Virus record (IMG/VR): IMGVR_UViG_3300009184_003751
Location: 1-64,000 of that record
DNA length: 64,000 nt
From: a virus
Reading direction: 5' to 3' (one strand)
In this document: piece by piece, positions 1-56,404 of the stretch
Numbering within the stretch: the stretch's first letter is position 1
Layout: each line of letters opens with the position of its first letter
The notes under the pieces: model-generated
Seen by the model: the letters and a program-made list of their open reading frames with translations, nothing else
Database searches by the model: none
What the model was told of the DNA's origin: nothing
Position numbers and translations under genes: made by a program

Positions 1-1614
1 AACAGAACCAGTATTGATACCAAGACCCATACCGAAAGCAGGAATACCTTCGTTGGCGATTTCAGCATTGAAGCGATCCAAGTCGCCAAGCATTTCAAGA
101 GCTGTTTTAACTGCATGTTTAGCGTGATCCTTATCGTCTAGTGGTGCGTTCCAAAAAGCCATTTGAGCATCACCAATATATTTATCAAGCGTTCCTTCAT
201 TTTCAAGTATTTTCGCAGTCATCGCTGTCATGTAGCGATTCATAATCTCAGTAAGACCTTGAACGTTAGATCCATAATGCTCACTAATAGTAGTGAAACC
301 CCTAACATCAGTAAACATAATTGAAAGTTCTCTGGTTTCTCCGCCAAGGCGTAATAACTCCGGATTCTTTTGTAGTTTTTCTACAAGTGCTGGTGAAAGA
401 TAAGTTCCAAATTGTTTTTTAATTTGTTGTTTTAATCTGAATTCACGAGCGAAATTATTAAACGTCAATTGAAAAAATATTGCGATGCAACTAAGTAATA
501 TGTAGCTCGGATCCCACAGCTGCATATAATTTAAAAACATATAATACGAACCGCCGACAATGGAAACGACAAATGTTATCAAAACAGGTATGGTCCAAAA
601 GACCGAAGTACGAGGTATTAGAATTAGCAATGTGCCTAATAGCAATACTAGCAGCGCTGTCTCTAGTAGCTTACTCTCTGGTAAACGGCTTATAGAAGTT
701 CCGTCAATTAAAGTTTGAAGTGCTTGACCTTGCACTTCATGTGCCCACTTCTCCCCGATAGGTGTTGCAACTATACCACCAACACCTTCGATGGTCAATC
801 CTAAGATAACAATTTTCCCTTCGACGGTTTCTTTTGTAATTTCAGTTGCTTCAATCTTGCTGAAGTTGTTGTTCCATCCGAGCCAGATGCGACCGTTTTT
901 ATCTGTAGAGATGGCGGGGAACTGTGGGATGCGGACGGCTTCGACACCCGCTTCACCTGTTTTGATTTGGTAAGAGGGATCGCCAGCAGCTGTTCGTAAG
1001 GTTTCCAATACAAAAGAAGGATACAGTGTATCGCCAATCCGAGCCAACATAGGCATACGACGGACAACGCCATCGCGCTCGGGAGCAACTGCCAAAAGCC
1101 CAACACCATCCGCATTTCCTGCCAATGTTGGTAAAGGAGCCACAGCCCCCCTCCAAGTATACAACCATGGATCAGGAGCATTACCGATACTAGCAAACCC
1201 TCTGCGAGCAGCATCTGCTGGTCTTGATTGAGATGTAGGAGTTTGAGAAATGACAACGCTACCACCTCCTAAACTTTTTGCGAGCTCTTGGTCGCCACCA
1301 GCTCTATCTTTTTCAGAAAATAAAATAGGAACTGAAATAACTGCTGCACCTGAATCGCGGAGCGTATCAATCGTTTGAGCAATATCCCTTCGGTCAAATG
1401 GCCATTGACCAAATTTTTGAACTGACTTTTCGCCAAACTCAACGAAAACAACTTCATCCGACTGTTTCTTTTCTAGTGTTCCTATCAGATAGTCAAAGGT
1501 TTTCAGCTGTAGTGTTTCGATAGGACTTGGATTGATAACATACAATGTCAACAGGAGAAAGGCGCTGATAGCAGCTGCCCACGTACTTGTAAGATATTTG
1601 CCCAGATTTTCCAT
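1..1614 (-). CDS. CHASE2-domain adenylate/guanylate cyclase (C-terminus off window)
   Basis: The frame stays open from an ATG at 1614 to the window edge (538 codons), so the protein is partial at its C-terminus. Residues about 10-28 form a membrane segment, residues about 30-310 resemble the extracytoplasmic CHASE2 sensor, and three hydrophobic segments follow at about 315-395. A class III cyclase domain comes next. It keeps the first metal-binding Asp in IMFTDVRGFT (about residue 434), the second in DKYIGD (about 478) with the Lys that usually selects ATP, and the Asn of GINTGSV. The family makes cAMP (or cGMP) in response to an external signal. The gene starts 2 nt after the small curlin-like gene and ends the csg cassette. 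I infer cAMP signalling tied to the curli genes. The domain call is firm; the ligand is unknown. Confidence 0.9.
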   Translation of the reverse strand, partial: MENLGKYLTSTWAAAISAFLLLTLYVINPSPIETLQLKTFDYLIGTLEKKQSDEVVFVEFGEKSVQKFGQWPFDRRDIAQTIDTLRDSGAAVISVPILFSEKDRAGGDQELAKSLGGGSVVISQTPTSQSRPADAARRGFASIGNAPDPWLYTWRGAVAPLPTLAGNADGVGLLAVAPERDGVVRRMPMLARIGDTLYPSFVLETLRTAAGDPSYQIKTGEAGVEAVRIPQFPAISTDKNGRIWLGWNNNFSKIEATEITKETVEGKIVILGLTIEGVGGIVATPIGEKWAHEVQGQALQTLIDGTSISRLPESKLLETALLVLLLGTLLILIPRTSVFWTIPVLITFVVSIVGGSYYMFLNYMQLWDPSYILLSCIAIFFQLTFNNFAREFRLKQQIKKQFGTYLSPALVEKLQKNPELLRLGGETRELSIMFTDVRGFTTISEHYGSNVQGLTEIMNRYMTAMTAKILENEGTLDKYIGDAQMAFWNAPLDDKDHAKHAVKTALEMLGDLDRFNAEIANEGIPAFGMGLGINTGSV

Positions 1615-1616
1615 TT

Positions 1617-1880
1617 TCAGTACTGGTTGATGATATATGGACTATTAGGGCAGCTGCTACCACATACAACGCTAAGGCTAAAAGACTGTGCATTAATTCC
1701 AGACTGAGTGACTGAAACGCTAATCCCGTCGCCTGAAAGTTGCAAATTAGCAGAATGACCAGAAGCAGACTGAGTAATAATAACATTTTGATTTGCTCCT
1801 TGAATGTTCACGATTGCATTATTAATATTCTGCGAATAAGCAGCAGTAGTCATAAAAAGTAAAGCTAAAAGTGTTTTCAT
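1617..1880 (-). CDS. Small curlin-like secreted protein
   Basis: This 87-residue protein has a signal peptide (hydrophobic to about residue 15, TAAYSQ) and a mature part rich in N, Q, S, G and I. It carries curlin-type strand-turn repeats such as NIQGANQNVIITQ and DGISVSVTQSGIN. The C-terminus has two Cys (VVCGSSCPNSP), unusual for curlins and possibly a disulphide or cap. Curlin subunits are secreted through CsgG and polymerise as amyloid. The size and position suggest a minor or nucleator subunit (CsgB-like), which is inference. A good AGGG ribosome site precedes the ATG, which overlaps the FecR stop (TGATG). Confidence 0.7.
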   Translation of the reverse strand: MKTLLALLFMTTAAYSQNINNAIVNIQGANQNVIITQSASGHSANLQLSGDGISVSVTQSGINAQSFSLSVVCGSSCPNSPYIINQY

Positions 1881-2992
1881 CAGTTACCCTGCTTTATATT
1901 GATAGTTGTTGTTCCTCTACTATTTACAATTTGAGAAATAGTAATGTTTTCTTGGGTAATGTTTACGGTTAAACTGTTATTAGTAGATACCGTTACTTCT
2001 GCATATGCACCACTTACTTCGCGATATAATGTAACATAGTCATTTTCAACGAAATACTTCAATCCAGTTGCAGCATTATACTTAGGCAATAGAGCATTAT
2101 ATTCAGTTAATTCGTTACCTAGTAATTGAGAAGATGCTATATCCAAAAGGTTCATAAGGTAATCTGAATCGAGATAATTTCTATCTAACTTATTATACTC
2201 TGATAGGTAATTTTTACTTAACTCGGTATATATTAATAGGTCTTTTCCAAGTAGATCTTCATCAAGAAAATTGTAAGCTTTAGTTACTATATTTTCTTGA
2301 ACTGCCACCTGTTTCGGTGGGGTAACAATAATTAGGTTATTGATTTGATCTAAATTGAGATTAAGGATAGCTGACTTCGGTGTAGTCATTCTACTACCAA
2401 CTGCAACTGATTCGAATGGCTTTGTTAACCAAACCGTACCCATATCAGTCGTTACGGATATAGATCCTGTGATACAATCGCGTTCAACATTTCTCCACCC
2501 AACAGGGCAAGAAGGTAAAAGAATAACAGTACTGCGACCGATCTCGTCAACAGTTCCAGAAAAGTCAGTTCCTCTGACACCGATTGTAGCTGTGGGCGTC
2601 TCAACAACAACCTGTTGCGGATCAGATTTAGCGATTTGACCTGATGCATATTTAATAGTTCCCAAAGCCATCTTGATTCCAAGCTTACCAGTTTTCTTAG
2701 AATCATCGTAAACAAAGTTATCAATTACAAGTTTAGAATGCTCGGTTATTTGAACCTTAGTATCATCCTGAAATGTAATGCCAGCTTTACCATTAGCAGT
2801 TGTGATTGTATCTCTCATCTCAATGCCACTTTGAATGGCGCTTGAAATCACAGCTGTATTACGTTTAATTTCAGTTGGACCTGTTTGCTCTGTTACTTTA
2901 CCAACGTCAGCTTTAGTTGTGGTTGGATCTAATAGTAAGAGTGTTGCCAGAACCAGTGATTGTAGAAATGACCTTTGAATCAACGCCGCCAC
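1880..2992 (-). CDS. FecR-domain exported protein with curlin-like C-terminal tail
   Basis: The 370-residue protein starts with a signal peptide (LVLATLLLLDP...TTTKADVG) followed by a FecR-type beta domain at about residues 45-150 (GKAGITFQDDTKVQITEHS; TPTATIGVRGTDF). Charged helical sequence follows at about 225-310. The last 35 or so residues read like curlin strands (VNITQENITISQI...TINIKQGN). In bacteria such FecR proteins often sit beside CHASE2 cyclases. Here it lies between two curlin-like genes, so a fibre anchor or periplasmic sensor is plausible. The start is uncertain: GTG at 2992 overlaps the upstream gene by 80 nt, and a TTG at 2983 has a better-spaced AAGG. Confidence 0.8.
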   Translation of the reverse strand: MAALIQRSFLQSLVLATLLLLDPTTTKADVGKVTEQTGPTEIKRNTAVISSAIQSGIEMRDTITTANGKAGITFQDDTKVQITEHSKLVIDNFVYDDSKKTGKLGIKMALGTIKYASGQIAKSDPQQVVVETPTATIGVRGTDFSGTVDEIGRSTVILLPSCPVGWRNVERDCITGSISVTTDMGTVWLTKPFESVAVGSRMTTPKSAILNLNLDQINNLIIVTPPKQVAVQENIVTKAYNFLDEDLLGKDLLIYTELSKNYLSEYNKLDRNYLDSDYLMNLLDIASSQLLGNELTEYNALLPKYNAATGLKYFVENDYVTLYREVSGAYAEVTVSTNNSLTVNITQENITISQIVNSRGTTTINIKQGN

Positions 2993-3596
2993 CTTGCTTA
3001 ATATCTACCGTATTAGTAGCGCCCAGGATATTCACGTCTGCTTCATGTCCATTTATACCTGCTACACCAGTTTGTTTAATTGCTACTTCATTACCGCCGC
3101 CGCCATCGATAAGCACAGTGCTTTTTGCACCAGCAACTGATGATGAATCGTTCTGAATGTTTACTGTGTTATTATCTGTATTGATTGTAACTGTTGAAAG
3201 TGTAAAACCTTCGGCATTTTGAGTAACAGTATTGTTATCGCCTGTAATTGTATTAACTAGAGACGAACCTGAACAAGATCCGCCAGAACCACAGGAAATA
3301 CCTACTGCGTTGTTATCGCCAGTTACCAAAGAGTTTATAGTAACGCCATCACCAAAAACAACTACGTTGGCAACGTTAGTGTTACCTATTTGGTCGATTG
3401 TTACGATATTGTTTTGTCCGTTAAAAGTCGCTTTATTCGTTGCATTACCAATAGAATTAGTGTTACCAGTTTGGGTCATACTGATCGTAGAACCATCGCC
3501 TATCTGATCAACGTATACACTATTTCCTGCTGCGTTTGCATAATTTACCATAACCAAGAATGACAATAACGCCATCATTCTTGTTAATAGTTGCAT
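2913..3596 (-). CDS. Curlin-repeat amyloid subunit (CsgA-like)
   Basis: The 227-residue protein has a signal peptide (LLSFLVMVNYANAAG) and then many short Asn/Gln/Gly repeats typical of curlins: VDQIGDGSTISMTQTGNTN, VTIDQIGNTNVANVV, VDIKQGGGVD. It is longer than E. coli CsgA (about 150) and has a Cys/Gly/Ser-rich break at about residues 100-112. In curli systems this kind of subunit is exported through the CsgG pore and assembles as surface amyloid. The ATG directly abuts the csgG stop and has an AGGG ribosome site. Which of the two curlin-like proteins is major is inferred only from size. Confidence 0.8.
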   Translation of the reverse strand: MQLLTRMMALLSFLVMVNYANAAGNSVYVDQIGDGSTISMTQTGNTNSIGNATNKATFNGQNNIVTIDQIGNTNVANVVVFGDGVTINSLVTGDNNAVGISCGSGGSCSGSSLVNTITGDNNTVTQNAEGFTLSTVTINTDNNTVNIQNDSSSVAGAKSTVLIDGGGGNEVAIKQTGVAGINGHEADVNILGATNTVDIKQGGGVDSKVISTITGSGNTLTIRSNHN

Positions 3597-4421
3597 TTAT
3601 TTTCCCTTCTTAAAGCTCCATAAGTTTTTCTTAGCGCCTTCTTTAATCATCTCTGTAACTGCCGCCTCAATCGCGATTCTAACGGCATACGTTGTCGGTT
3701 CGTTGACAGAAGAACCAGCTTCGAACTCTACTGATTTAGTTCCAGCATCAACAAACTTAAATACGTTAGCATTAACACCTGTACTGAATACGGTTTTAGT
3801 AACGCCAGTAGATAAAAGTATCTCACCTGTATTTATAGAAATTAACCTTAACATTATAGTAACTTCGTCTTTTCTATACTCCTGAGTAGCTCCTACGCCA
3901 AGGAATCTAGCACCGATACCGCCAGTACCGATGTTAGAGTCATACCCGACGATACCACCATCAATCATAATACCAGCAACGATGAGAGGCGTCAAAGGCT
4001 TTGCCTGATCCTTCTCATAAAGCTCTCTCTGTGAACGAATAAGCTGTCTTTCTTTTACAAGGTTTTCAAGAGCAACACGTTCAACGGGCATAAACCATTG
4101 ACCCTTGCCAGCATCCTGTAAAGCTTTAATTAAAAGAACTTCGCCGCCCTGCGTTACTGCAGAACTGAACGAAGCATAGTTTTGCGATGGTTTTCTTTGG
4201 CCAGTTAAGTCAGCAAACTTATAAACAGCAATAGGAACCTTTGGCCCATCTACAGGAGCAAGGTTCGCTAATTCATTAAATCTCTTAGAAGTTTTAATTA
4301 CTTCTGGGGAATCAACTTGCGGCTCTACATGCCTTGCGCTTGTTATTTCTTTACCTGTGCAACTTGCAACAAGTAAGCCAGCAAATATAGCAATCCATAA
4401 TTTTTTTATCGTTTTTACCAT
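3597..4421 (-). CDS. csgG: CsgG outer-membrane curli secretion pore lipoprotein
   Basis: The 274-residue protein has a lipoprotein signal with lipobox LVASC (Cys21). The CsgG core is clear throughout: VAVYKFADLTGQRKPSQNY-type strand, FMPVERVALENLVKERQLIR, MIDGGIVGYDSNIGTGGIG and the transmembrane hairpin region. CsgG forms a nonameric pore in the outer membrane that secretes curlin subunits. At the E. coli constriction (Tyr51/Asn55/Phe56), Phe appears kept while Asn is replaced by Ser, so channel selectivity may differ. Length is close to E. coli CsgG (277). A GGGAG site lies 6 nt before the ATG, which overlaps the csgF stop by 7 nt. Confidence 0.95.
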   Translation of the reverse strand: MVKTIKKLWIAIFAGLLVASCTGKEITSARHVEPQVDSPEVIKTSKRFNELANLAPVDGPKVPIAVYKFADLTGQRKPSQNYASFSSAVTQGGEVLLIKALQDAGKGQWFMPVERVALENLVKERQLIRSQRELYEKDQAKPLTPLIVAGIMIDGGIVGYDSNIGTGGIGARFLGVGATQEYRKDEVTIMLRLISINTGEILLSTGVTKTVFSTGVNANVFKFVDAGTKSVEFEAGSSVNEPTTYAVRIAIEAAVTEMIKEGAKKNLWSFKKGK

Positions 4422-4852
4422 GCTAAACTCCCATACGGAACTACCACTTCAGTAACGCTACCAGCAGCATCTGTTATTCTTAATGTTATATTAGAACCAT
4501 CAGATGACCAAGCAACGTTATTAGATGCAATATCAAAAGACCCAGAAGTTTTGCCGTCGTCGCTAAAAAGCTGTTCGGCTATCTTCTGGGATAAGGTCGC
4601 ATAGACGCGACTTTCTAAATTGTTTAGAAACTTGGCTAGGTTTGTATTTTTAGCATCCGAAGCTGCTTTAGCTGCCTCGGCTTTTTTATCATCTAATAAC
4701 TTTTGTTTTCTTGTTTGTTCTAAATTTTCTATCGTAAGAACATGAGAAGAAAACCCTACGCCGTTAAAAGCAGGACTTCTAAACTGAAATTGAATTTCAT
4801 TAGCATATGAAACAGAAGAAAATAAACAAAATAATGCGACTAACTTTTTCAT
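4415..4852 (-). CDS. csgF: CsgF curli assembly factor
   Basis: The 145-residue protein has a signal peptide (cleavage after YA at about residue 17). The mature N-terminus NEIQFQFRSPAFNG matches the CsgF segment that inserts into the CsgG pore (E. coli TFQFRNPNFGG type). An Ala/Lys-rich helix follows at about 45-75, then a beta C-terminal domain. CsgF couples the pore to curlin nucleation at the cell surface. It is the first gene of the cassette, only 22 nt after the tRNA-Trp 3' end, with no obvious promoter between. I therefore infer transcription from the tRNA array. No csgE is visible in the window. Confidence 0.9.
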   Translation of the reverse strand: MKKLVALFCLFSSVSYANEIQFQFRSPAFNGVGFSSHVLTIENLEQTRKQKLLDDKKAEAAKAASDAKNTNLAKFLNNLESRVYATLSQKIAEQLFSDDGKTSGSFDIASNNVAWSSDGSNITLRITDAAGSVTEVVVPYGSLAW

Positions 4853-4874: not shown

Positions 4875-4948
4875 TGGCACCAGTGGAAGGAGTCGAACCC
4901 TCGCCTAGATTTTTGGAGAATCCCGTGCTACCGTAACACTTCACTGAT
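4875..4948 (-). tRNA. tRNA-Trp (CCA)
   Basis: A cloverleaf with a 7-bp acceptor (ATCAGTG/CACTGGT), anticodon loop CTCCAAA and a TTCGACT T-loop is visible, and CCA is encoded. It is the last tRNA before csgF. Confidence 0.9.
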
Positions 4949-4964
4949 ATATAACTATTTAGGG

Positions 4965-5054
4965 TGGTGGAGAGTGTGAGATTCGAACTCACGGAACCTG
5001 TTAGGGTTCGAGCATTTAGCAAACGCTTGCCTTAAGCCTCTCGGCCAACTCTCC
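4965..5054 (-). tRNA. tRNA-Ser (GCT)
   Basis: A class II tRNA of 90 nt with acceptor GGAGAGT/ACTCTCC, anticodon loop TTGCTAA, a long variable arm (CGAACCCTAACAGGTTC) and encoded CCA. Confidence 0.93.
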
Positions 5055-5058
5055 GTAA

Positions 5059-5143
5059 TGGTGGAAGAGGATGGATTCGAACCAACTCACCGTACAGAAT
5101 CGATTTACAGTCGACCGCGACTCTCCAACTTCGCCGCTCTTCC
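5059..5143 (-). tRNA. tRNA-Tyr (GTA)
   Basis: A class II tRNA with acceptor GGAAGAG/CTCTTCC, anticodon stem GTCGA/TCGAT around CTGTAAA, and encoded CCA. Confidence 0.93.
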
Positions 5144-5149
5144 AATTCT

Positions 5150-5223
5150 TGGTACCATCTACTGGTTACGATCCAGTGCTAAGAGTGCCACAAACTCTTG
5201 TGCTACCATTACACTAAGATGGC
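5150..5223 (-). tRNA. tRNA-His (GTG)
   Basis: Acceptor GCCATCT pairs with AGATGGT, and the anticodon loop is TTGTGGC. The T-loop reads ATCGTAA instead of TTCGAAT, an oddity shared with the tRNA-Ile at 7480. CCA is encoded. Confidence 0.85.
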
Positions 5224-5224
5224 A

Positions 5225-5300
5225 TGGTGCTGCCTGAGAGGTTCGAACTCCCGACATCTCGATTACTAATCGAGTGCTCTACCAACTGAGCTAAGGCAGC
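5225..5300 (-). tRNA. tRNA-Thr (AGT)
   Basis: A full cloverleaf: acceptor GCTGCCT/AGGCAGC, anticodon stem CTCGA/TCGAG around TTAGTAA, T-loop TTCGAAC and CCA. The anticodon AGT has A at position 34, rare for bacterial Thr tRNAs. A second Thr tRNA (TGT) lies at 5707. Confidence 0.85.
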
Positions 5301-5305
5301 ATATT

Positions 5306-5382
5306 TGGTGCGCTTGGAGGGAGTCGAACCCCCAAAACTTGGTTTCTAAGACCAATACGTATACCAATTCCGTCACAAGCGC
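5306..5382 (-). tRNA. tRNA-Leu (TAG) with short variable region
   Basis: Acceptor GCGCTTG/CAAGCGC, a Leu-like D-arm (GACGGAATTGGTATACG), anticodon loop CTTAGAA and CCA are present. Only about 5 nt separate the anticodon stem from the T-stem, where a bacterial tRNA-Leu normally has a long variable arm. Confidence 0.85.
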
Positions 5383-5388
5383 ATTTAT

Positions 5389-5463
5389 TGGAGCGGACGA
5401 TGAGATTCGAACTCACGACAACTTGCTTGGCAAGCAAGGACTCTACCACTGAGCTACATCCGC
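5389..5463 (-). tRNA. tRNA-Gly (GCC)
   Basis: Acceptor GCGGATG pairs with CGTCCGC (one G-T pair), anticodon stem CTTGC/GCAAG encloses TTGCCAA, the T-loop is TTCGAAT and CCA is encoded. Confidence 0.93.
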
Positions 5464-5468
5464 ATTAA

Positions 5469-5543
5469 TGGAGTTGCCTCCCAGAATCGAACTGGGTTCT
5501 CAAGGATTTGCAGTCCCGTATATTACCATCCTACTCAGGCAAC
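5469..5543 (-). tRNA. tRNA-Cys (GCA)
   Basis: Acceptor GTTGCCT/AGGCAAC, anticodon loop CTGCAAA with an imperfect 5-bp stem, T-loop TTCGATT and encoded CCA. Confidence 0.88.
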
Positions 5544-5546
5544 AAT

Positions 5547-5620
5547 TGGCGATCCTGAAGGGACTCAAACCCTCCTTTTCCCGTAGACAGCGGGAAGCCT
5601 TCTCTGACGGCAACAGGATC
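5547..5620 (-). tRNA. tRNA-Asp (GTC)
   Basis: Acceptor GATCCTG/CAGGATC is perfect, and anticodon stem TCCCG/CGGGA encloses CTGTCTA. The T-loop TTTGAGT and the 3-bp D-stem are divergent. CCA is encoded. Confidence 0.85.
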
Positions 5621-5623
5621 AGA

Positions 5624-5700
5624 ACTCGTGATAGGACTTGAACCTATATGCTCCCGAATACTGCCGTAGACAAGAGAACTTACGCTTAGTTGACACGAGT
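5624..5700 (-). tRNA. tRNA-like element without a canonical anticodon arm
   Basis: A 7-bp acceptor (ACTCGTG/CACGAGT) and a perfect T-arm (ATAGG TTCAAGT CCTAT) are clear, with a possible D-stem AACT/AGTT. No proper anticodon stem-loop forms, the middle contains TGTCTACGG as in the adjacent tRNA-Asp, and CCA is absent. It ends 3 nt before tRNA-Asp. It may be a decayed tRNA or a small stable RNA. Confidence 0.5.
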
Positions 5701-5706
5701 ATAAAC

Positions 5707-5782
5707 TGGTGCTGTTGGAGAGAATCGAACTCCCGACCTGATGATTACAAATCAACTGTTCTACCAATTGAACTACAACAGC
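5707..5782 (-). tRNA. tRNA-Thr (TGT)
   Basis: Acceptor GCTGTTG/CAACAGC, anticodon loop TTTGTAA, T-loop TTCGATT and encoded CCA. Confidence 0.92.
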
Positions 5783-5880
5783 GAATAAGTGGGAGCTAAC
5801 CTTGGCTCCCGTCGGATCTATTTGTCGCGATCAACCGTTTGAGGGTTCCATGCATAAACGCTGTCTACCCACACCCATTT
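5783..5880. other. Structured tRNA-array spacer
   Basis: No gene is visible. A 6-bp hairpin lies at 5791-5810 (GGGAGC/GCTCCC). A 7-nt loop CTCAAAC closed by AACC/GGTT (minus strand, 5833-5847) looks like a Leu-CAA anticodon arm, but no acceptor or T-arm goes with it. This could be a decayed tRNA. Confidence 0.35.
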
Positions 5881-5956
5881 TGGTGGAGACATGCGGGATC
5901 GAACCGCAGACCTGAAGCTTGCAAAGCTACCGCTCTCCCAACTGAGCTATGTCCCC
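5881..5956 (-). tRNA. tRNA-Ala (TGC)
   Basis: Acceptor GGGGACA pairs with TGTCTCC (one G-T pair), anticodon loop TTTGCAA, T-loop TTCGATC and encoded CCA. Confidence 0.93.
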
Positions 5957-6056
5957 AAATTCATCCGCGTCTTTTATAGTGGCTAAGTTATCGCAGCCCC
6001 ACTACTGGTACGCACATCATCAGATCTAGAAACCGATGAATAGTAATCCAGCGACT

Positions 6057-6131
<75 letters not shown>

Positions 6132-6137
6132 ATATAA

Positions 6138-6216
6138 TGGCTCCCAGTGCCGGAATCGAACCGACCTAACCATTGCTTAACAGGCAAGTCCATGCACCAT
6201 GCTCGGATTTCTGGGA
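6138..6216 (-). tRNA. tRNA-Asn (GTT)
   Basis: Acceptor TCCCAGA pairs with ACTGGGA except for the last pair. The anticodon loop is CTGTTAA, the T-loop is TTCGATT and CCA is encoded. Confidence 0.85.
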
Positions 6217-6344
6217 ATAGAATTACTTTCCTCGTCTTTTACCGTTTTGCGGTTTAAATTCTGGAAGTAATTTTTTAAATCTTTGAACTAAATTTGGCTT
6301 AGATTTATCATAACCTGTTTGTTATAATTAACAGTATATAAACT

Positions 6345-6620
6345 TTAGTTACAAACTCGTTCTTGACGAATGCCGTAAGGAGTGCGGCGATCGACGATAT
6401 AGCAATGAGGACGACGAGGATAAACAGGAACATAACGTTCCTGATAAACTACTGGACGTCGCTCAACGTATACTGGACGAGGCTGAGACGCTTCATTAGC
6501 TACAACTGCACCAGCAGCAGCACCAACAACACCAGCAGCTACAAGTTGCTGTTCGCGTGCTGTACAGCCAGCCAATCCGAGAGCAATAAGTGGAACTAAT
6601 AGAATCTTACGCATTGTCAT
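6345..6620 (-). CDS. Small lipoprotein with glycine-zipper segment
   Basis: The 91-residue protein has a lipoprotein signal with lipobox LAGC (Cys19), then an Ala/Gly/Val stretch (AAGVVGAAAGAVVANEAS) like a glycine-zipper, and an Arg/Tyr/Pro-rich tail ending in C(X)13C-type spacing. It probably sits in the host envelope. It lies 8 nt downstream of the outer-membrane protein gene and should share its promoter. The function is unknown. An envelope change that excludes other phages is one possibility, and this is inference only. Confidence 0.75.
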   Translation of the reverse strand: MTMRKILLVPLIALGLAGCTAREQQLVAAGVVGAAAGAVVANEASQPRPVYVERRPVVYQERYVPVYPRRPHCYIVDRRTPYGIRQERVCN

Positions 6621-6628
6621 TCCCCAAA

Positions 6629-7156
6629 TTAGAACTTATAATTTACGCCAAGCGTGACAACGTTCTCATCGCGATCACGCTTACGGTCAGTGATATAACG
6701 GTAACGAACATCTGCTTCAATATCGCTTGTGATGTCATAACGGACACCAGCACCAGCAACGTAGATAGGCTCGCGCTTAAGATCAGACCAACGATAACCA
6801 ACGCCAGCAAGAGCATAAGGAACAACAGGAACGAAACCAATCTTATACTGACCGATTACGTTTGTAGTTGCTGTATGTGAACGAAGCTTTGATGATTCAT
6901 TCCAAGCATAATCATAATCAGCTTCTACACGAGCAAACTCTGAAAATTCCCAACCAGCGCGAGCATTAACGCGAAGAGCGTCGTACCAAGGATTGATATT
7001 TGTTACAGCCTTCGAACCCAAAGAACCGCCAACATAAAATTCAGCCGACTCTTGTGTAGGAGCAGGAGGTGCTGCTGGGGTCTTAGCAGGAATATCGCTA
7101 GCCGAAGCAGCGGTAGCAAAAATCAAACCAACAAATGTTACAACATACTTATTCAT
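6629..7156 (-). CDS. Outer-membrane beta-barrel protein (Omp25/RopB-like)
   Basis: The 175-residue protein has a signal peptide (ATAASASDIPAK) and a Pro/Ala linker, then FYVGGSLG and alternating amphipathic strands ending in NVVTLGVNYKF with a C-terminal Phe typical of porins. The layout matches small eight-strand barrels of alphaproteobacteria (Omp25/Omp31/RopB type). It has its own strong sigma70-like promoter (7187-7215) and lies between two tRNA blocks, so early expression is likely. A role in altering the host surface or blocking superinfection is inference. Confidence 0.8.
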   Translation of the reverse strand: MNKYVVTFVGLIFATAASASDIPAKTPAAPPAPTQESAEFYVGGSLGSKAVTNINPWYDALRVNARAGWEFSEFARVEADYDYAWNESSKLRSHTATTNVIGQYKIGFVPVVPYALAGVGYRWSDLKREPIYVAGAGVRYDITSDIEADVRYRYITDRKRDRDENVVTLGVNYKF

Positions 7157-7186
7157 ACTTTTTACTCCATTTCAAGTTATACACCT

Positions 7187-7215
7187 ATTATATAGGTGAT
7201 AGGTTTAAAAGTCAA
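7187..7215 (-). promoter_or_regulatory. Early sigma70-like promoter
   Basis: TTGACT, 17 nt and TATAAT are read leftwards. It begins one or two bases after the tRNA-Ser CCA and drives the outer-membrane protein and lipoprotein, and probably the left tRNA array and csg cassette. Confidence 0.8.
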
Positions 7216-7216
7216 G

Positions 7217-7306
7217 TGGAGGAAGCGGTGGGATTCGAACCCACGGGAGACTTTCGCCCCCGCTAGTTTTCAAGACTAGAACCTTAAACCACTCGGTCAC
7301 ACTTCC
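7217..7306 (-). tRNA. tRNA-Ser (TGA)
   Basis: A class II tRNA: acceptor GGAAGTG pairs with CGCTTCC, anticodon stem CTAGT/ACTAG encloses CTTGAAA, with a long variable arm, T-loop TTCGAAT and CCA. Confidence 0.93.
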
Positions 7307-7312
7307 ATTAAT

Positions 7313-7389
7313 TGGTCGGAGTGGCAAGACTCGAACTTGCGACCTCTGGTACCCAAAACCAGCGCACTACCAGGCTGTGCTACACTCCG
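7313..7389 (-). tRNA. tRNA-Pro (TGG)
   Basis: Acceptor CGGAGTG/CACTCCG, anticodon stem CTGGT/ACCAG around TTTGGGT, T-loop TTCGAGT and CCA. Confidence 0.93.
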
Positions 7390-7400
7390 TTATTCTTATT

Positions 7401-7476
7401 TGGTGATCTCTGTGGGATTCGAACCCACGACAATTCGATTAAAAGTCGAATGCTCTACCAACTGAGCTAAGAGATC
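7401..7476 (-). tRNA. tRNA-Lys (TTT)
   Basis: Acceptor GATCTCT pairs with AGAGATC, anticodon stem TTCGA/TCGAA encloses CTTTTAA, T-loop TTCGAAT and CCA. Confidence 0.93.
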
Positions 7477-7479
7477 TAA

Positions 7480-7554
7480 TGGTTGGCACAGGTGGTTACG
7501 ATCCACCGACCCCTGTCTTATCAGGACAGTGCTCTACCGCTGAGCTATGCGCCA
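7480..7554 (-). tRNA. tRNA-Ile (GAT)
   Basis: Acceptor TGGCGCA pairs with TGTGCCA, anticodon stem CTGTC/GACAG encloses CTGATAA, and CCA is encoded. The T-loop is ATCGTAA, as in the tRNA-His at 5150. Confidence 0.88.
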
Positions 7555-15623: not shown

Positions 15624-16350
15624 CTAGATTATCAGCAACAGGAAACTCTTTTGTTTCAGTTTCGTGCTTACCAGGAATAGCAGCAAAGTAAACAGCATTC
15701 CTAGCTCTAAATGCAGCTCTAATTATACTATAACCAAAACGATTATACAACCAGTTTGAATAAGCACTTACATAATCATACTTATCATTAACTTGAGCCG
15801 AGAGAATTTCACCATACTTTTTGCCATGAATAGTCATAGGATAAGTTACTGATGTATCTGTCCAAACAACAAGCTTAGGATTAGATTCGAACATTTTATC
15901 GAAACCATTTTTCCACTTAGTTGTTATTTGAAGAATACTCGAGTTAGGCAAATCAAGAAACTTTAAATCGCTTTCGTCGTTTTTCTCAAGAGCCTTTTGA
16001 GCATCTTCAAGATCAACTGTAATAGGGCAATCCCATCTTGTGCTAAGAAGATGTTCTACGCACCCAGCATCAAGTTCGCCAACATTATGCTTAGAAATTT
16101 TAAACAGTTTTTGAATTAAAAGAGTTTGAACTCCGATACCAGCCATATATTCTCTAACAGAATAATTTTCATCTGGCTGTATAACATTTTGCAAAAGCCA
16201 CTTTGTAGCCCAGCACTTGGCGGCTACTAGATCCGTGTGCTGGGCTGCATAGTGAATATACGAACGATTGTGGAGGCTTACGCTATCTTCTGACTTAACA
16301 TCAATGTTAAACGGAAGGTCCCACTCATTACAAATTTTAGCAATTTTCAC
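15571..16350 (-). CDS. Rossmann-fold methyltransferase-like protein
   Basis: The 259-residue protein has a probable SAM-binding motif I (REYMAGIGVQTLLIQKLF, about residues 86-103), an acidic motif II (NVGELDAGCVEHL) and a VVWTDTSVTYPM segment in the place of motif IV. It lacks the Pro-Cys and ENV motifs of cytosine-C5 methyltransferases, so it is probably not the source of 5-methylcytosine. It is embedded in the modification cassette and may act on a base, an adduct or a small molecule. Fold is inferred; activity is unknown. Confidence 0.5.
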   Translation of the reverse strand: MKIAKICNEWDLPFNIDVKSEDSVSLHNRSYIHYAAQHTDLVAAKCWATKWLLQNVIQPDENYSVREYMAGIGVQTLLIQKLFKISKHNVGELDAGCVEHLLSTRWDCPITVDLEDAQKALEKNDESDLKFLDLPNSSILQITTKWKNGFDKMFESNPKLVVWTDTSVTYPMTIHGKKYGEILSAQVNDKYDYVSAYSNWLYNRFGYSIIRAAFRARNAVYFAAIPGKHETETKEFPVADNLDGFYFMGEEKSTLDNFF

Positions 16351-17669
16351 GCAAAGAAATCCTCAAGAGTAGATGTTTCATCCTTACCATAAGGATCCTT
16401 CATATCATGCTTATGAAGGTAATCATACCACTCTTGATCTTCCCACATTCCTGGGGAAACGCCATTCCAAAGAGGACGCCAAAACTTATGTTCCTTATTC
16501 ATGCGACGTTCGTCAACGTACTGCTTACGAAGCATTTCATAATCATATGACTTAAGTTCGAGCATCTTTTCGCGGAAATAACAAACCAACGAAATACGTT
16601 CTGCCTTATCGTGGTTTAAAACGATAGGAGTGTTACCGTGAATAATTTCATGATTGTTAACAAGAAGCAGATCGCCTGGACGAACGTTCACAGCAACGCG
16701 AACTTCTGGAAATACAAGATAGCCACCAGTATACTCGCCATCCCCAAGAACAAGAAGATTAGAAAGACCTTCATTCAAGTCACCAGCATCTCGGTGACAA
16801 GCAGTACGGAATGACTTATTAACTGTGATTGTAGTAAACACAGTTTCAGGAACAAGGAAACGAGGATCAATTTTATCGGCAGCTGCCTTCTGATTGCTCC
16901 AACGCCAGTTGAGAAGCTCCTTGAAACCTTTATTCAAAGTTTGCATGAAAGGATAGCAACCCTTGAACTTTTCAAAGTTCTTTTCAGTATAAGAAGTTGC
17001 GCGACCATAAGGGATACGAGGATAACGATCGTACCAACCAGCAACGCCAGACATAACAGACTTCGCATAGTTAGTTGTTGATGCCCACTTTTCAGCAACC
17101 ATCTTCGCTTCATCACGAACTGTTTCTTGTGGCTTGTTTGCGAGACCATCAACCCACTTATCGAACCAACCATGATACTCAGGATAAACCTTTTCAACTT
17201 CTGAACGAAGCCAAACTGTTCCGCGAGTTTCGTCGCTATCCTTAGGATTGCCGTTCTTATACTTCTCACGAATGCTTTCGATTGAAACGTCATCAATCAA
17301 ACGTGCGCCATCATCCATAAGGAAGTCAAGCACTTCATGCTGATAAGCAGTTACCCAATCACGACCACCACGACCTTCAACAGCTAGCATATCCCCACGA
17401 GGACCAGCGGCGATACCACGGTTTTGAGATTCAGTTGCTGCTTCGCGCAGAGCTTCATAAGCTGAATTTTGTTCTTCTTTACTAAAGTAATTTTTACGGA
17501 ACTTAAAAGCAATACGAAGTTCTTCGTTATCAGAATCGTCTAAGCTTGATGCAGCTAGAAAACAATCAGTATCTTCTTCAACCAGAATATCATAATGCGA
17601 CTCGTCAGGAAACTGACCGAGCATATCTTCTCTGTTAAACTTTTCTTTAGCTACAATTACCTTAACCAT
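16347..17669 (-). CDS. TET/JBP-like 2-oxoglutarate Fe(II) dioxygenase
   Basis: The 440-residue protein has a helical N-terminal half and a C-terminal double-stranded beta-helix of the TET/JBP type. Visible are the Fe ligands in TACHRDAGDLNEGL (His-X-Asp, about residue 291), GGYLVFPEVRVAVNVRPGDL, the distal His in NNHEIIHGNTP (about 343) and the 2OG-binding Arg in ERISLVCYF. TET/JBP enzymes oxidise the methyl group of thymine or 5-methylcytosine in DNA. It is the first gene of its operon, with promoter 17713-17741. The following genes suggest hydroxymethylated bases are further decorated. The oxygenase call is firm; the substrate is inferred. Confidence 0.85.
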   Translation of the reverse strand: MVKVIVAKEKFNREDMLGQFPDESHYDILVEEDTDCFLAASSLDDSDNEELRIAFKFRKNYFSKEEQNSAYEALREAATESQNRGIAAGPRGDMLAVEGRGGRDWVTAYQHEVLDFLMDDGARLIDDVSIESIREKYKNGNPKDSDETRGTVWLRSEVEKVYPEYHGWFDKWVDGLANKPQETVRDEAKMVAEKWASTTNYAKSVMSGVAGWYDRYPRIPYGRATSYTEKNFEKFKGCYPFMQTLNKGFKELLNWRWSNQKAAADKIDPRFLVPETVFTTITVNKSFRTACHRDAGDLNEGLSNLLVLGDGEYTGGYLVFPEVRVAVNVRPGDLLLVNNHEIIHGNTPIVLNHDKAERISLVCYFREKMLELKSYDYEMLRKQYVDERRMNKEHKFWRPLWNGVSPGMWEDQEWYDYLHKHDMKDPYGKDETSTLEDFFA

Positions 17670-51073: not shown

Positions 51074-51937
51074 TTATTGATACAGATAGCGGATGATGAC
51101 AACACCGGAACCGCCGTTACCACCGACAGAGCCACAGCAGCCAAAGTCTTGCCCACCGCCGCCGCCGCCAGAGCCTGTATTGGGAGACCCAGAACCACCG
51201 CTAGGTGATCCTGCGTTTCCACCCGCACCAGCTCCGCCCCCGCCGCCTGACCCACCAAAGTTTGCTCCACCGCCGCCTCCGCCGCCAGCATATGCAACGG
51301 ATGACCCGCTAATAGAGTTTGATGTAGAGGAGCCGCCATTGGCTCCACCCTTTATCGTTACACCAGATGCCGTAATAGATGCGCCTACAGAACCGCTACC
51401 GCCGCCGCCAGCAGCGCCGTTGACATTGTCTGTTCTTCCGTTGCCGCCATTATTGCCTTGCCCTGATGTTCCAGCGCCCCCAGTAGTAGTTCCGGCTCGT
51501 GGATTACCGCCACCACCTGACCCGCCAGATTGAGCAGCAACAGCGTTCCAATTGTCGCAACCAGCACCGCCGCCTGTTGATGTAGTAGAAATAGCTGAAG
51601 AGTTAGAACCATTACTGTTTTGTGATCCACCACTACCAACTGTGACAGTATAGCCCTGAACAGAAACTGATTGTCCTGTCGTGTACTGATAACCACCAGC
51701 GCCACCCCCGCCAGCGGGCAGGGCGGCACCGCCGCCGCCTTGCCCACCACCACCGCCGCCAGCGATGACAAGATAATCAACAGCCTGACCAACAGGAGCA
51801 TTGGTTACTGTAAACGTGCCTGTGCCAGTAAACGTATGGATTTTGTAATTACCGCTAGTCGTGATTGTGCCACCCGTTGCTTGGATAAACGGACTAGCAG
51901 CCGCAGCCGCGCCAAGCAGCATTGAATAAGCAGTCAT
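51074..51937 (-). CDS. Glycine-rich tail-fibre/adhesin protein
   Basis: The 287-residue protein starts MTAYSMLLGAAAAASPF; the ATG at 51937 overlaps the upstream stop (TAATG), better than 51985. It has an N-terminal beta part and long Gly-rich tracts (GGGGGGQGGGGAALPAGGGG; GGSGGGGGAGAGGNAG), ending GGNGGSGVVIIRYLYQ. This is the Gly-rich domain plan of phage adhesins, as in the genes at 42489 and 45812. Confidence 0.75.
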   Translation of the reverse strand: MTAYSMLLGAAAAASPFIQATGGTITTSGNYKIHTFTGTGTFTVTNAPVGQAVDYLVIAGGGGGGQGGGGAALPAGGGGAGGYQYTTGQSVSVQGYTVTVGSGGSQNSNGSNSSAISTTSTGGGAGCDNWNAVAAQSGGSGGGGNPRAGTTTGGAGTSGQGNNGGNGRTDNVNGAAGGGGSGSVGASITASGVTIKGGANGGSSTSNSISGSSVAYAGGGGGGGANFGGSGGGGGAGAGGNAGSPSGGSGSPNTGSGGGGGGQDFGCCGSVGGNGGSGVVIIRYLYQ

Positions 51938-54465
51938 TAGGTTAGTCCCCCGCCTGTGATGACGTAAGTATTGGAACCAACGCAAAGAATTGTGCAGAGG
52001 CCATACTGAGCTAATGTACGGTTGCCAGTATTAGCTGTGCCAACCTGACGAAGCGTGACAGAGCTGCCTTGCGTGATCGTCTGATTGGAGCCGCTATCGT
52101 TGTAGATTGAAACAGACTGGCCAGCCGTCAAAGCAGTTGATGTCGCAACTGTAACTCCACCCGTTGTAATGCTGATGTATTTACCAGCATCGCCTGAGGT
52201 CAACGTGTAAGCGCCTCCTTGGCTGTTTAGCGGAACAGTGCGAACATTGCCAAGTGCATCACTTACACTGCCATAAGTAGTACTAATATCAAAATTAGCA
52301 GTTAACGTCCCAGAAACTGTTAAAGTATTTGACGTTAAAGTCACGGCGGTTTGATAACCGTAAACGTCAATAATATAGTTATTAGCTGGAGTTACAGTAA
52401 AGTTAACATTGCTACCAGAAGTAATAATTACGTCAGTTCCAGGTATCTGCTTAACACCGTTTAAGAATACTTGAACAGCATTAGCAATATAACCACCAGT
52501 AATAGCGAAACTATTAGCAGTACCGTTTGCAGTAATTTGCTGAGATACAAGCGTATTAACACCATTGGCCATTAACCCAGAAAGCGCATACGTATCAATA
52601 ACAGCATTAGTTGGTGGCGTTGTGACGAACTGGAATGTAGAACCGTTCAATCCTGTAATTTCAGTATTGGTAGCAAGCACACCATTCATAAACACAAGCA
52701 ATGCATTTGACTGATAACCAGCGGTAAACGTAAAGGTGTTTTGTGTTCCATCAGCAGTAAATGTCTGACGCGACATTAAACCACTAGTTGTTCCACCACC
52801 AGCAGCAGTAGACCAATAAACAGACGAGCCATTAGAAGTTAATACCTGACCCGATGTACCGTTTGAACTATTGGCAGTCATTGCGCCAGTAATTACAAAA
52901 TTATTTACTGATATTGACTGACCATTAGTAAACCCACCGCTAGCGCCAGTAGTCCAATATACCGAAGTACCATTAGAAGCCAAATATTGGCCAGCAGTAC
53001 CAAAACCGCCATTAGCAGAAACGCCAGCTGTTGTGCCGATTACTAAATTACCGCTATGGGTGTGAACCCCAGATATTGTATATGAGCCAGAAGTATTAAC
53101 ATAAGAAGCAGCTGCAACACCACCTAGATATGATGTATTGTTAGCGGTTAATGCGTTATTTACATTAAGATTAGATTCTGTTTTACCATTGAGGTAAGTT
53201 GCAGCATTAGCAGTTAATGTAGCAACGTTTGACGAGAGCCCAGCAGTCGTTTGATAGTTTGCTAAATTGTTCGTTAGGTTTGTAGCCGTTACGTAGTTAG
53301 AAAGATTACCTGATAGCTGTGCATTAGATACAACGTTAGCAGCGGATACTGTTCCTACAAAAGAAGTATTGTTAGCTGTCAATGTAGCTACGTTTGCAGA
53401 CAATCCAGCAGTAGTTTGATAGTTGGCTAGATTGTTTGTTAAATTAGTTGCTGTAACATAATTTGCTAGGTTACCAGATAGTTGAGCATTAGAAACAACA
53501 TTAGCAGCTGATACAGAACCAACAAAACTAGTGTTATTTGAAGTCAGTGCATTGTTAACGTTGAGATTAGATTCTGTTTTACCATTGAGATAAGTTGCAG
53601 CGTTTGCAGTGAGGGTAGCAACGTTTGCTGATAAGCCAGCGCTAGTTTGGTAATTAGCTAAATTGTTCGTTAGGTTTGTAGCCGTTACGTAGTTAGAAAG
53701 ATTACCTGATAGCTGTGCATTAGATACAACGTTAGCAGCGGATACTGTTCCTACAAAATTAGTATTGTTTGATGTAAGAGCTTGACCAGAAAAATATGTT
53801 GAATTTGCTACTAAAGAACCGTTAATTGAAATAGCGCTACTATTAGCAACAACATTTTGAGATGTGTTACCAATTGTTACAAAAGTGTTTACTGTAATTT
53901 TACCAGTAAATGCTGGGTCAGATATTGTAGCATAATTAGCTAAGTTATTAGAAAGATTAAACGATGTTACGTAATTAACGAGATTACCAGATAGTTGCGC
54001 ATTAGATACAACGTTAGCAGCTGATACTGAACCAACGAATGATGTATTATTAGCAGTATCTGACCAATACGGAGTTGAACCATTTGAAACTAATACTTGA
54101 CCAGTATTACCTGGTAGCCCATTTGCATTTAATTCACCATTTAATATAAGACCATTATTAGCAGTAACAATTCCGGAAAAAGTTGCTTCATACGCATCGA
54201 TATATGTGTTTGATCCGCCATAAGAAGTAACACTGAATGCTGTAGAATTTATATTAACATTTGTATTTAAATTACCAACGCTAATTGCTGGTGTTATAAT
54301 AACATCTGGTGCTATTGTAGTTAAAACTTGTGTATTTCCAACAGTAATGCTACTAGTATTAGCAAACAATGCGTTTGCGTTTGAATCCACTGCACCATCA
54401 AGCTCTTGAAGAGTTTGTATAGTCAAATATTCGGATGTTAAAAATGATACTTGATTTGTAGTCAT
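51937..54465 (-). CDS. Long repetitive tail-fibre protein
   Basis: The 842-residue protein has an N-terminal shared module, then three to four tandem repeats built on SAANVVSNAQLSGNL and YVTATNLTNNLANYQT with NAATYLNGKTESNLNVNNAL, then CBM-like segments (QTFTADGTQNTFTFTAGYQ; VFLNGVKQIPGTDV) and a Gly/Ser-rich end. The DNA of two repeats (53261-53362, 53657-53758) is identical. It is probably a long fibre shaft. Confidence 0.8.
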   Translation of the reverse strand: MTTNQVSFLTSEYLTIQTLQELDGAVDSNANALFANTSSITVGNTQVLTTIAPDVIITPAISVGNLNTNVNINSTAFSVTSYGGSNTYIDAYEATFSGIVTANNGLILNGELNANGLPGNTGQVLVSNGSTPYWSDTANNTSFVGSVSAANVVSNAQLSGNLVNYVTSFNLSNNLANYATISDPAFTGKITVNTFVTIGNTSQNVVANSSAISINGSLVANSTYFSGQALTSNNTNFVGTVSAANVVSNAQLSGNLSNYVTATNLTNNLANYQTSAGLSANVATLTANAATYLNGKTESNLNVNNALTSNNTSFVGSVSAANVVSNAQLSGNLANYVTATNLTNNLANYQTTAGLSANVATLTANNTSFVGTVSAANVVSNAQLSGNLSNYVTATNLTNNLANYQTTAGLSSNVATLTANAATYLNGKTESNLNVNNALTANNTSYLGGVAAASYVNTSGSYTISGVHTHSGNLVIGTTAGVSANGGFGTAGQYLASNGTSVYWTTGASGGFTNGQSISVNNFVITGAMTANSSNGTSGQVLTSNGSSVYWSTAAGGGTTSGLMSRQTFTADGTQNTFTFTAGYQSNALLVFMNGVLATNTEITGLNGSTFQFVTTPPTNAVIDTYALSGLMANGVNTLVSQQITANGTANSFAITGGYIANAVQVFLNGVKQIPGTDVIITSGSNVNFTVTPANNYIIDVYGYQTAVTLTSNTLTVSGTLTANFDISTTYGSVSDALGNVRTVPLNSQGGAYTLTSGDAGKYISITTGGVTVATSTALTAGQSVSIYNDSGSNQTITQGSSVTLRQVGTANTGNRTLAQYGLCTILCVGSNTYVITGGGLT
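53261..53362. repeat. Exact 102-nt direct repeat, copy 1
   Basis: By eye identical to 53657-53758 within the same fibre gene. It encodes SAANVVSNAQLSGNLSNYV and the following TATNLTNNLA. Confidence 0.85.
53657..53758. repeat. Exact 102-nt direct repeat, copy 2
   Basis: Second copy of the 53261 repeat. A third protein-level copy at about 53410-53520 is diverged at many synonymous positions. Confidence 0.85.
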
Positions 54466-55874
54466 TATACTTTAACCGTTCTTGGGCCAGTTTGATCGAA
54501 TATTGTACCAATGCTTGTATTACCAACATAAATTAAAGTATCCGTAACTCTAATTAAAGTATTACCATTATTAATAGATATACCAACTGGGTTATTAATT
54601 GTAAACCCACCAGTTATTGAAGTATTTGTTGGCAATAATTGTCCAATATGAGAATCAAATATTCCTCCATTAAAGGGTCCTTCATTAGAAGATCGTTTAA
54701 TAGTTCCTGCACTAAATGTGCCTGATCTAGCGTTTACAGCACTGGTGTTTAATTTTTTAAATCCAAGGATAGTTGTAAACGATGTACTTGGTACTACAGA
54801 AGCTATTAAAAATTTCCCATTTATTGTAAATGTTTGCGTACCACAAATAAACGAGTTTGGAGTTAACCCAGTTATATCAACAGTATCACCAACTGATAAT
54901 GTATGACCAGGATAAGTAAACGTCATTGAAATACTACCTTGGAAATAAAATTCGATACCAGGTATCGAATAACTTTTGTTAAACATATTTAAAGTTAAAT
55001 CCGATGGTCCATTAGTGTAAGAAAACGCTGTTGAATTAATCACATTTGCGGTTGAACCAGTAGTAGAAAAAGGAATTATTGTAGTGCCTTTAGTAGGAGT
55101 AAATTTAGGAATAAAAATTTGCGTTCCGTTTGCAAATTCATGTGATCCAGTAGTAACAACTGTTGCAACACCATTTGCTCTTTGAATTGTCTTAATATTA
55201 CGATCTCCTGTAGATGCTTTATAATTACCAATCGGGATAGTAAAAGATACAGTATTTGCAGTTGGTATATCTAAAATATTAAACCCACTCTTATAACTAA
55301 CACTATAATTTTCTGTATTAAGAGTGTTAAGCGAACTATTAATAATAATTTTAGAATTTAAAATTTTCGTAAGCCCATGCGCAGTCGTTGTTTGTATTGT
55401 AGCTTTACCAGTTGAATCTATATTTGCACTATAAATTGTAAATGTCGAAGTTCCACCTGTTGTATCAATAAGGGTATTAACAGTAGAATTACCAACAAAT
55501 ATGATTCTTGGCGAAAGGCTAGAATTACTAATTGTATTTGAAACAGAGATATATGTCGTATTAACAACAGTATTTACTGCACTGTTACCAGCAAACAAAG
55601 ATGTTGAATTAATAGAAGCATTTACTGTAGAGTTACCAACGGAAATACCATTGGCAATAGTAACGCTATTTGCTGCAAGCGTTTCTGCTGAAAGGTTTTT
55701 TTGAGACGCACCAACAATAATTGAGCTCGTACCATTTGACGTGTAAAGAAGTCCATCTGCCATATTAAGGGCAAACTCACCTGGGGCGATATACGAGGTG
55801 TTTGATGGATTCGAAACGTTAGGTGTACGTCCAGAAACGGAAGAACGCTTCACCTGAATTCTAGTATTGGCCAT
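54465..55874 (-). CDS. Tail-fibre/structural protein
   Basis: The 469-residue protein starts MANTRIQVKRSSVSGRTPNVSN, then PGEFALNMADGLLYTSNG, a common phage fibre N-terminus. Repeats VGNSTVNASINSTSLF and VGNSTVNTLIDTT follow, then beta-rich domains (FIPKFTPTKGTTIIPF). It overlaps the 51937-54465 gene by one base. It is probably the proximal fibre piece that attaches to the baseplate. Confidence 0.75.
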   Translation of the reverse strand: MANTRIQVKRSSVSGRTPNVSNPSNTSYIAPGEFALNMADGLLYTSNGTSSIIVGASQKNLSAETLAANSVTIANGISVGNSTVNASINSTSLFAGNSAVNTVVNTTYISVSNTISNSSLSPRIIFVGNSTVNTLIDTTGGTSTFTIYSANIDSTGKATIQTTTAHGLTKILNSKIIINSSLNTLNTENYSVSYKSGFNILDIPTANTVSFTIPIGNYKASTGDRNIKTIQRANGVATVVTTGSHEFANGTQIFIPKFTPTKGTTIIPFSTTGSTANVINSTAFSYTNGPSDLTLNMFNKSYSIPGIEFYFQGSISMTFTYPGHTLSVGDTVDITGLTPNSFICGTQTFTINGKFLIASVVPSTSFTTILGFKKLNTSAVNARSGTFSAGTIKRSSNEGPFNGGIFDSHIGQLLPTNTSITGGFTINNPVGISINNGNTLIRVTDTLIYVGNTSIGTIFDQTGPRTVKV

Positions 55875-55906
55875 ATGGCTCCTTTACAGCTCAGTATATA
55901 CTGAGA

Positions 55907-56386
55907 TTAAAAAATATCTTCTTCGGTCATTTTAGCCTCATTTGGGCGTTTAACAACCTTTTTCTTATTTATAGTTTTTAAAGATTCGTTTTCATCGTTT
56001 ATTATTTTCATTTCAGCGTTTTGGCGCTCAATTTCTCGTTCTAAATCTTTAATACGAGAATTAGCATTATTTAATTCGTTTTGAACTTTTGTTTTTTCAT
56101 TAAAAACATTATGGTGTTCAGAAGTTTTTCTATTCGAATCTTCTATAGCTCTATCGAGTTGACTACTCAACGATTTATTTTCAATACTAAGTTTTTCTAA
56201 ACTACTCAAAACTTCGTTCTTTAAGTTTTCAGAAGCTTCTAATTGACTTGTAATCAATTCAAGTCGATCGGAAGTTATTTTATTTCTAACTTCCAGATCG
56301 ATCGTTTTCCTAACATACTCGATGAATAAAAACTCTTGACGTTGTGCAAATAATAGGTTATAATTAGACTGTTCGTTTGAATCCAT
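55907..56386 (-). CDS. Coiled-coil protein in fibre locus
   Basis: The 159-residue, highly charged protein is predicted coiled coil from about residue 35 to 135 (ELITSQLEASENLKNEVLSS; LNNANSRIKDLEREIERQNA). The Lys-rich C-terminus (KKKVVKRPNEAKMTEEDIF) follows. It could be a fibre-assembly chaperone or a virion linker; no family is recognised. Confidence 0.65.
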   Translation of the reverse strand: MDSNEQSNYNLLFAQRQEFLFIEYVRKTIDLEVRNKITSDRLELITSQLEASENLKNEVLSSLEKLSIENKSLSSQLDRAIEDSNRKTSEHHNVFNEKTKVQNELNNANSRIKDLEREIERQNAEMKIINDENESLKTINKKKVVKRPNEAKMTEEDIF

Positions 56387-56404
56387 AATATAGTAACCTT
56401 ATCG

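Follow-up and report, generated by a model that had tools for sequence, protein, structure and literature searches.

What is a receptor-type adenylate cyclase gene doing at the end of a curli cassette in a phage genome, and is its product likely to be active? The question arises at the left end of IMG/VR record IMGVR_UViG_3300009184_003751, of which we analyzed a window of 64,000 nucleotides (bases 1-64000 of the 86,472-base record), with base 1 of the window being the left end of the record itself. The window codes for phage families including a major head protein, scaffold, portal, tail sheath, terminase, and helicase, as well as RegA and clamp-loader genes; the T4-like head, portal, sheath, and terminase genes bear out the initial annotation of the cyclase as phage-borne, and the carrier is a T4-like myovirus. 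T4 Gp23 was found in 11 of the 18 related records asked, HTVC008M and Melnitz among them, and not found in the other 7 (six virus records and the bacterial MAG G016). Sixteen tRNA genes lie at 4875-7554, upstream of csgF (ARAGORN), one of them a tRNA-Thr called with anticodon agt, and a further tRNA-Arg is located at the right end of the record. Between the tRNA clusters, at 6345-7156, are a lipoprotein-signal gene and a gene for an OmpA-like outer-membrane beta-barrel. Elsewhere in the window, the protein coded at 16347-17669 has a weak match to phrog_6059 (queuine tRNA-ribosyltransferase; E 1.7e-7) and a strong match to phrog_24024 (function unassigned), and is possibly involved in 7-deazaguanine chemistry; three large proteins (842, 469, and 595 aa) coded within 51937-58192 have no PHROGs match at 1e-5.

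The cassette and the parts of its cyclase gene are as follows.

4415..4852, minus strand: CsgF curli assembly factor (PF10614, E 1.6e-17)
3597..4421, minus strand: CsgG curli export pore (PF03783, E 1.5e-53)
2913..3596, minus strand: curlin-repeat protein, CsgA/B-like (PF07012, E 2.6e-6)
1880..2992, minus strand: FecR-domain protein (PF04773, E 3.9e-11)
1617..1880, minus strand: "minicurlin," a putative secreted curlin-like protein of 87 aa (from position and sequence)
1..1614, minus strand: CHASE2 adenylate cyclase, 538 residues, 3' end removed by the contig end
634..1551, minus strand: CHASE2 periplasmic sensor domain, residues 22-327 (PF05226, E 1.6e-39)
406..675, minus strand: three predicted membrane/coupling helices 3' of CHASE2 (AlphaFold2 model of the L006 protein)
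1..333, minus strand: N-terminal ~60% of the class III cyclase catalytic domain (PF00211, E 1.5e-8)
307..309, minus strand: codon of metal-binding Asp436 (alignment with relatives and structures)
181..183, minus strand: codon of adenine-site Lys478 (alignment with relatives and structures)
169..171, minus strand: codon of metal-binding Asp482 (alignment with relatives and structures)

The genes are thus ordered CsgF-CsgG-curlin-FecR-minicurlin-cyclase, with the cyclase last. The minicurlin has no match in Pfam or PHROGs, and is probably curlin-like. A sequence search with the FecR-domain protein found no relative in the PDB, and its structural model (low to moderate confidence, mean pLDDT 61) has a signal-peptide-like helix, a FecR beta domain, a linker, and a C-terminal beta domain. 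The whole model matches a putative anti-sigma factor (4m0h, Z 8.6) and also resembles a "cell surface anchoring domain" over 73 of 76 residues (5ix9, presumably from a Marinomonas adhesin; Z 7.2, and a Z under 8 may reflect a common arrangement). The cassette is well conserved: in 47 of 82 phage loci the sequence reaches 5.9 kb or more upstream of the cyclase gene (the other 35 are too short), and all 47 carry FecR and curlin genes there, with both CsgG and CsgF in 40 and the identical order in all 40, using profiles built from the very loci counted, with which BLASTP searches using the window's own proteins agree for most. In the seven loci without CsgG the FecR gene lies ~4.6-5.5 kb upstream, and CsgG is present in all 20 virus records asked, including those of these seven loci. 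CsgF, CsgG, curlin, FecR, and cyclase genes are co-located in conserved order on phages, as in the T8SS, FecR, and AC module of PMC9599517.

The cyclase reading frame extends from an ATG at 1614 to base 1, with 538 codons and no stop, and residues 7-538 match positions 4-540 of the 681-position profile of phrog_35576 (E 2.3e-181), a PHROGs family with the CHASE2 plus cyclase architecture of this gene. Because the record ends at base 1 the gene is cut, so that ~150 residues are absent, including half of the six catalytic positions: the purine-site residue (552), the transition-state Asn (559), and the Arg (563) all lie past the contig end. The cyclase had been described as intact and complete, which cannot be claimed when the left edge of the window is the left end of the contig, although the copy in nature is presumably whole. 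The missing piece is not at the right end of the record, where there are other genes and a tRNA, and extending the contig leftwards is ruled out by the record stopping at base 1. The 73 complete frames among the 82 phage loci have a median length of 686 aa (range 563-706); one frame (L013:2197-3888) stops early at 563 aa, through truncation or a sequencing error.

The designation as a CHASE2 receptor cyclase is upheld by the domain matches. The PF05226 match scores 136.5 bits, far above the Pfam cut-off of 26.3, and the PF00211 (Guanylate_cyc) match of residues 428-538 scores 34.9 bits against a cut-off of 21.9, even though just positions 7-111 of the 183-position profile are present. Four membrane helices are predicted in all. 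The AlphaFold2 model of the L006 protein (80% identical to the window protein; mean pLDDT 85.9) has helices at residues 314-335, 338-363, and 370-403 following CHASE2, and these are probably membrane helices.

The class III catalytic site has six key residues: two metal-binding Asp, a purine-site pair, and the transition-state Asn and Arg. Both Asp (D436 and D482), Lys478, and the GINTG motif are present in the window, as first claimed. In an alignment of 83 rows (the window and 82 relatives), D436, K478, and D482 are each found in 83/83; among the 80 rows extending to positions 552-563 (three do not), T552 is conserved in 78 (S in one, D in one), N559 in 79 (S in one), and R563 in all 80. Melnitz is the row in which Ser replaces the transition-state Asn and Asp replaces the purine-site Thr, and at least one homologue may thus be weak. 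These residues align with those of CyaC (1wc1) and Pseudomonas aeruginosa CyaB (3r5g), and the catalytic domain of the L006 model superposes on the CyaC and CyaB structures with TM scores of 0.81-0.86 by target length. Across the whole frame (538 codons), comparison with nine close relatives gives dN of 0.135-0.208 and dS of 0.73-1.32; restricting this comparison to the catalytic part gives dN of 0.024-0.141, with dS saturated in one pair. The cyclase gene is under purifying selection, and because dN is far below dS over 538 codons, a chance open frame is excluded. Judged by its relatives, this CHASE2 receptor cyclase is predicted to be active.

The nearest bacterial cyclases are generally in a different setting. 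We surveyed the best 80 genome loci, many with short fetched flanks, and found curli genes in the fetched flank of one: a 32-kb Caulobacteraceae MAG contig (L086) with the order CsgF-CsgG-curlin-curlin-FecR-cyclase. We considered that this could be a misfiled phage contig, but the remaining genes (acyl-CoA dehydrogenase, amidohydrolase, Cys/Met PLP enzyme, TonB receptor, and S9 peptidase) are bacterial, and we take it as such, noting that it is a single MAG contig. A PycTM gene (PF18967, E 8.8e-25) is located 442 bases downstream of its cyclase on the same strand (L086:10497-11090). In a 61-row tree, the 33 phage rows fall together on the same side of a single branch (100/99), with L086 joining adjacent to them (100/100). 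The tree is midpoint rooted and so gives no direction of transfer: L086, which makes at least one exception to a statement in print, could represent the donor type or have received its cassette from a phage. CsgF is coded by 34 of 299 genomes of the same order, 8 of which also code for CHASE2, and by 7 of 385 genomes in a class sample (one below the Pfam cut-off); in both samples CHASE2 is close to CsgF only in the L086 genome, although draft contigs may hide others. The cassette in bacteria is rare. FecR proteins are encoded directly upstream of the cyclase in 28 of the 73 other bacterial loci with >1.5 kb upstream. In a Pfam test of six proteins selected from many, those of L110, L144, and L107, chosen for a FecR match, combine FecR with cadherin-like or RTX repeats, and HlyD is the direct cyclase neighbor in L110, L144, and L109. 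FecR is also reported beside CHASE2 kinases in a Burkholderia biofilm operon (PMC5192318).

We favor a model, which we consider the probable explanation of the locus as a whole, in which the cyclase of a phage curli cassette senses envelope state through CHASE2 and makes cAMP that acts on host receptors. During infection, the phage would make CsgG/CsgF pores, secrete curlin proteins, and place its FecR-domain protein in the periplasm, where the CHASE2 domain of the membrane-anchored cyclase would sense the state of the envelope, the cue possibly being pore or fiber occupancy or a FecR-bound signal. A phage-encoded cAMP receptor was considered and rejected, as PF00027 cyclic-nucleotide-binding domains are found in 0/18 virus records, including that of the window (many of these records are fragments), and with no such domain on the phages, cAMP, if made, must act via host receptors. 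Sinorhizobium meliloti CHASE2 cyclases respond to a protein cue relayed by an outer-membrane barrel, according to PMC13001267. The initial annotation had proposed that the cyclase could reset host cAMP and so affect host physiology or curli expression; the curli part of this is reversed, in that curli genes are supplied by the phage itself, in the cassette that also holds the cyclase, and are absent from the published hosts of related phages (PMC9599517, PMC9004378).

The strongest competitor, although one to which we give well under half the weight, is that the cyclase is a general gene for reprogramming host cAMP that travels beside the curli cassette and responds to a cue unrelated to curli or FecR. 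Pairwise distances among 43 phage loci with all genes whole bear on this, with shared descent ignored and the catalytic part having a small range: FecR distances correlate closely with those of CsgG (r 0.96), CsgF (0.96), and curlin (0.94), whereas correlations with the curli genes and FecR are only 0.56-0.69 for CHASE2 and 0.34-0.47 for the catalytic part. Furthermore, the cyclase of L006 is closer to that of L023 (CHASE2 0.67, catalytic part 0.91) than to that of L052 (0.52, 0.78), while its FecR, CsgG, and CsgF are closer to L052 (0.61, 0.67, and 0.66) than to L023 (0.35, 0.48, and 0.34), a topology conflict between the cyclase and the other three. Because of the r values of 0.34-0.69, we count a strict partnership of the cyclase with FecR and curli as disfavored; we instead read FecR as probably belonging to the curli machinery, with the cyclase as an exchangeable sensor. 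Against full independence, none of the 47 loci with sufficient room lacks the upstream FecR and curlin genes, and the single bacterial cassette likewise has the cyclase adjoining FecR.

A second alternative, which we regard as improbable, concerns the product, which could be cGMP or a pyrimidine cyclic nucleotide, perhaps acting in phage-host conflict in a Pycsar-like manner. Pycsar systems combine a cyclase with a PycTM or TIR effector, and the PycTM gene downstream of the Caulobacteraceae cassette is consistent with this, as is the presence of guanylate cyclase 2w01 among the structure matches. However, PF18967 is found in 0/18 virus records including that of the window (which may be fragments), leading us to reject a PycTM effector on the phages, and phmmer finds nothing matching the L086 PycTM among the phage loci or the remaining 79 loci from bacteria. 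Class IIIb adenylate cyclases pair Lys with Thr or Ser, rather than Asp, in the purine site, and some are stimulated by bicarbonate. The Lys is seen in the window itself and its partner Thr in the relatives only (78/80), and this Lys-Thr pair is that of the adenylate cyclase CyaC. Least likely of all is that the cyclase is a functionless, decaying passenger, as the altered Melnitz active site and the one short frame of 73 could suggest, since dN/dS is well below 1 and the catalytic residues are near-invariant across relatives.

The envelope-sensing cyclase of our preferred model may belong to a broader arrangement, and we tentatively suggest that FecR-domain proteins and CHASE2 cyclases could work as a pair with a general role in sensing exported surface appendages. 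The alphaproteobacterial FecR near the start of giant adhesins would then serve for retention in the periplasm, with type I secretion genes alongside; FecR and a CHASE2 cyclase would have become attached to curli in phages and one Caulobacteraceae lineage, with FecR joining the curli machine and the cyclase moving from one cassette to another and reading the state of export. If so, the cAMP of an infected cell would report whether fibers are out. Phage curli cassettes are widespread, in that IMG/VR contains at least 599 stretches that match a pattern and code for a relative of the window cyclase, and printed work calls their role unclear; the CHASE2 naming, the cassette on a bacterial contig, and the covariation of FecR with curli alongside cyclase exchange are testable handles on the cue and the origin.

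A phage-encoded cyclase is not new. T8SS, FecR, and cyclase genes were reported in pelagiphages in 2022 (PMC9599517), and the HTVC008M and Melnitz records have the same gene order with the last gene annotated as adenylate/guanylate cyclase; the core of our finding is thus already known. CsgF and CsgG are described in pelagimyophages and Melnitz, with function left open, in PMC7029224 and PMC9004378. A text search does not find the term CHASE2 in PMC9599517, and we did not find in print that the sensor is CHASE2, that FecR varies with the curli proteins and the cyclase does not, that the nearest bacterial cyclases have FecR-bearing adhesin genes or type I secretion genes as neighbors, that a Caulobacteraceae MAG has the whole cassette, or that PF00027 is in none of the 18 virus records.

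Among known systems, alphaproteobacterial CHASE2 adenylate cyclases (Bradyrhizobium and others) resemble that of the window in joining CHASE2 to a class III catalytic domain and have the same catalytic residues, with Lys-Ser/Thr, in 27/27 rows other than L086, but are ~33-37% identical and are beside FecR-bearing giant adhesins or HlyD, not curli. Spirulina CyaC (1wc0-1wc6) and P. aeruginosa CyaB (3r5g) share the catalytic fold and active-site residues, the matched chains being catalytic domains only, with the CHASE2 sensor outside the match. In the podophage modules described in PMC9599517, a histidine kinase gene precedes csgF; in the window none does, as tRNA genes are directly upstream of csgF. 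HTVC008M has CsgF, CsgG, curlin, a gene at the FecR position, a second curlin-like gene, and a cyclase (41.7% identical over 99%) in the same order, although its second curlin-like gene codes for 441 aa and that of the window for just 87. The Methylophilales phage Melnitz likewise has the same curli gene order and a cyclase 46.3% identical, and its GenBank record (L004, MZ577097) lists two proteins of the cassette as curlin-associated repeat proteins, at odds with PMC9004378, which describes Melnitz as lacking csgA/csgB. Its second curlin-repeat gene is larger than the minicurlin gene in the same place, and its active site, with Ser and Asp at the transition-state Asn and purine-site positions, sets it apart from the window's other relatives.
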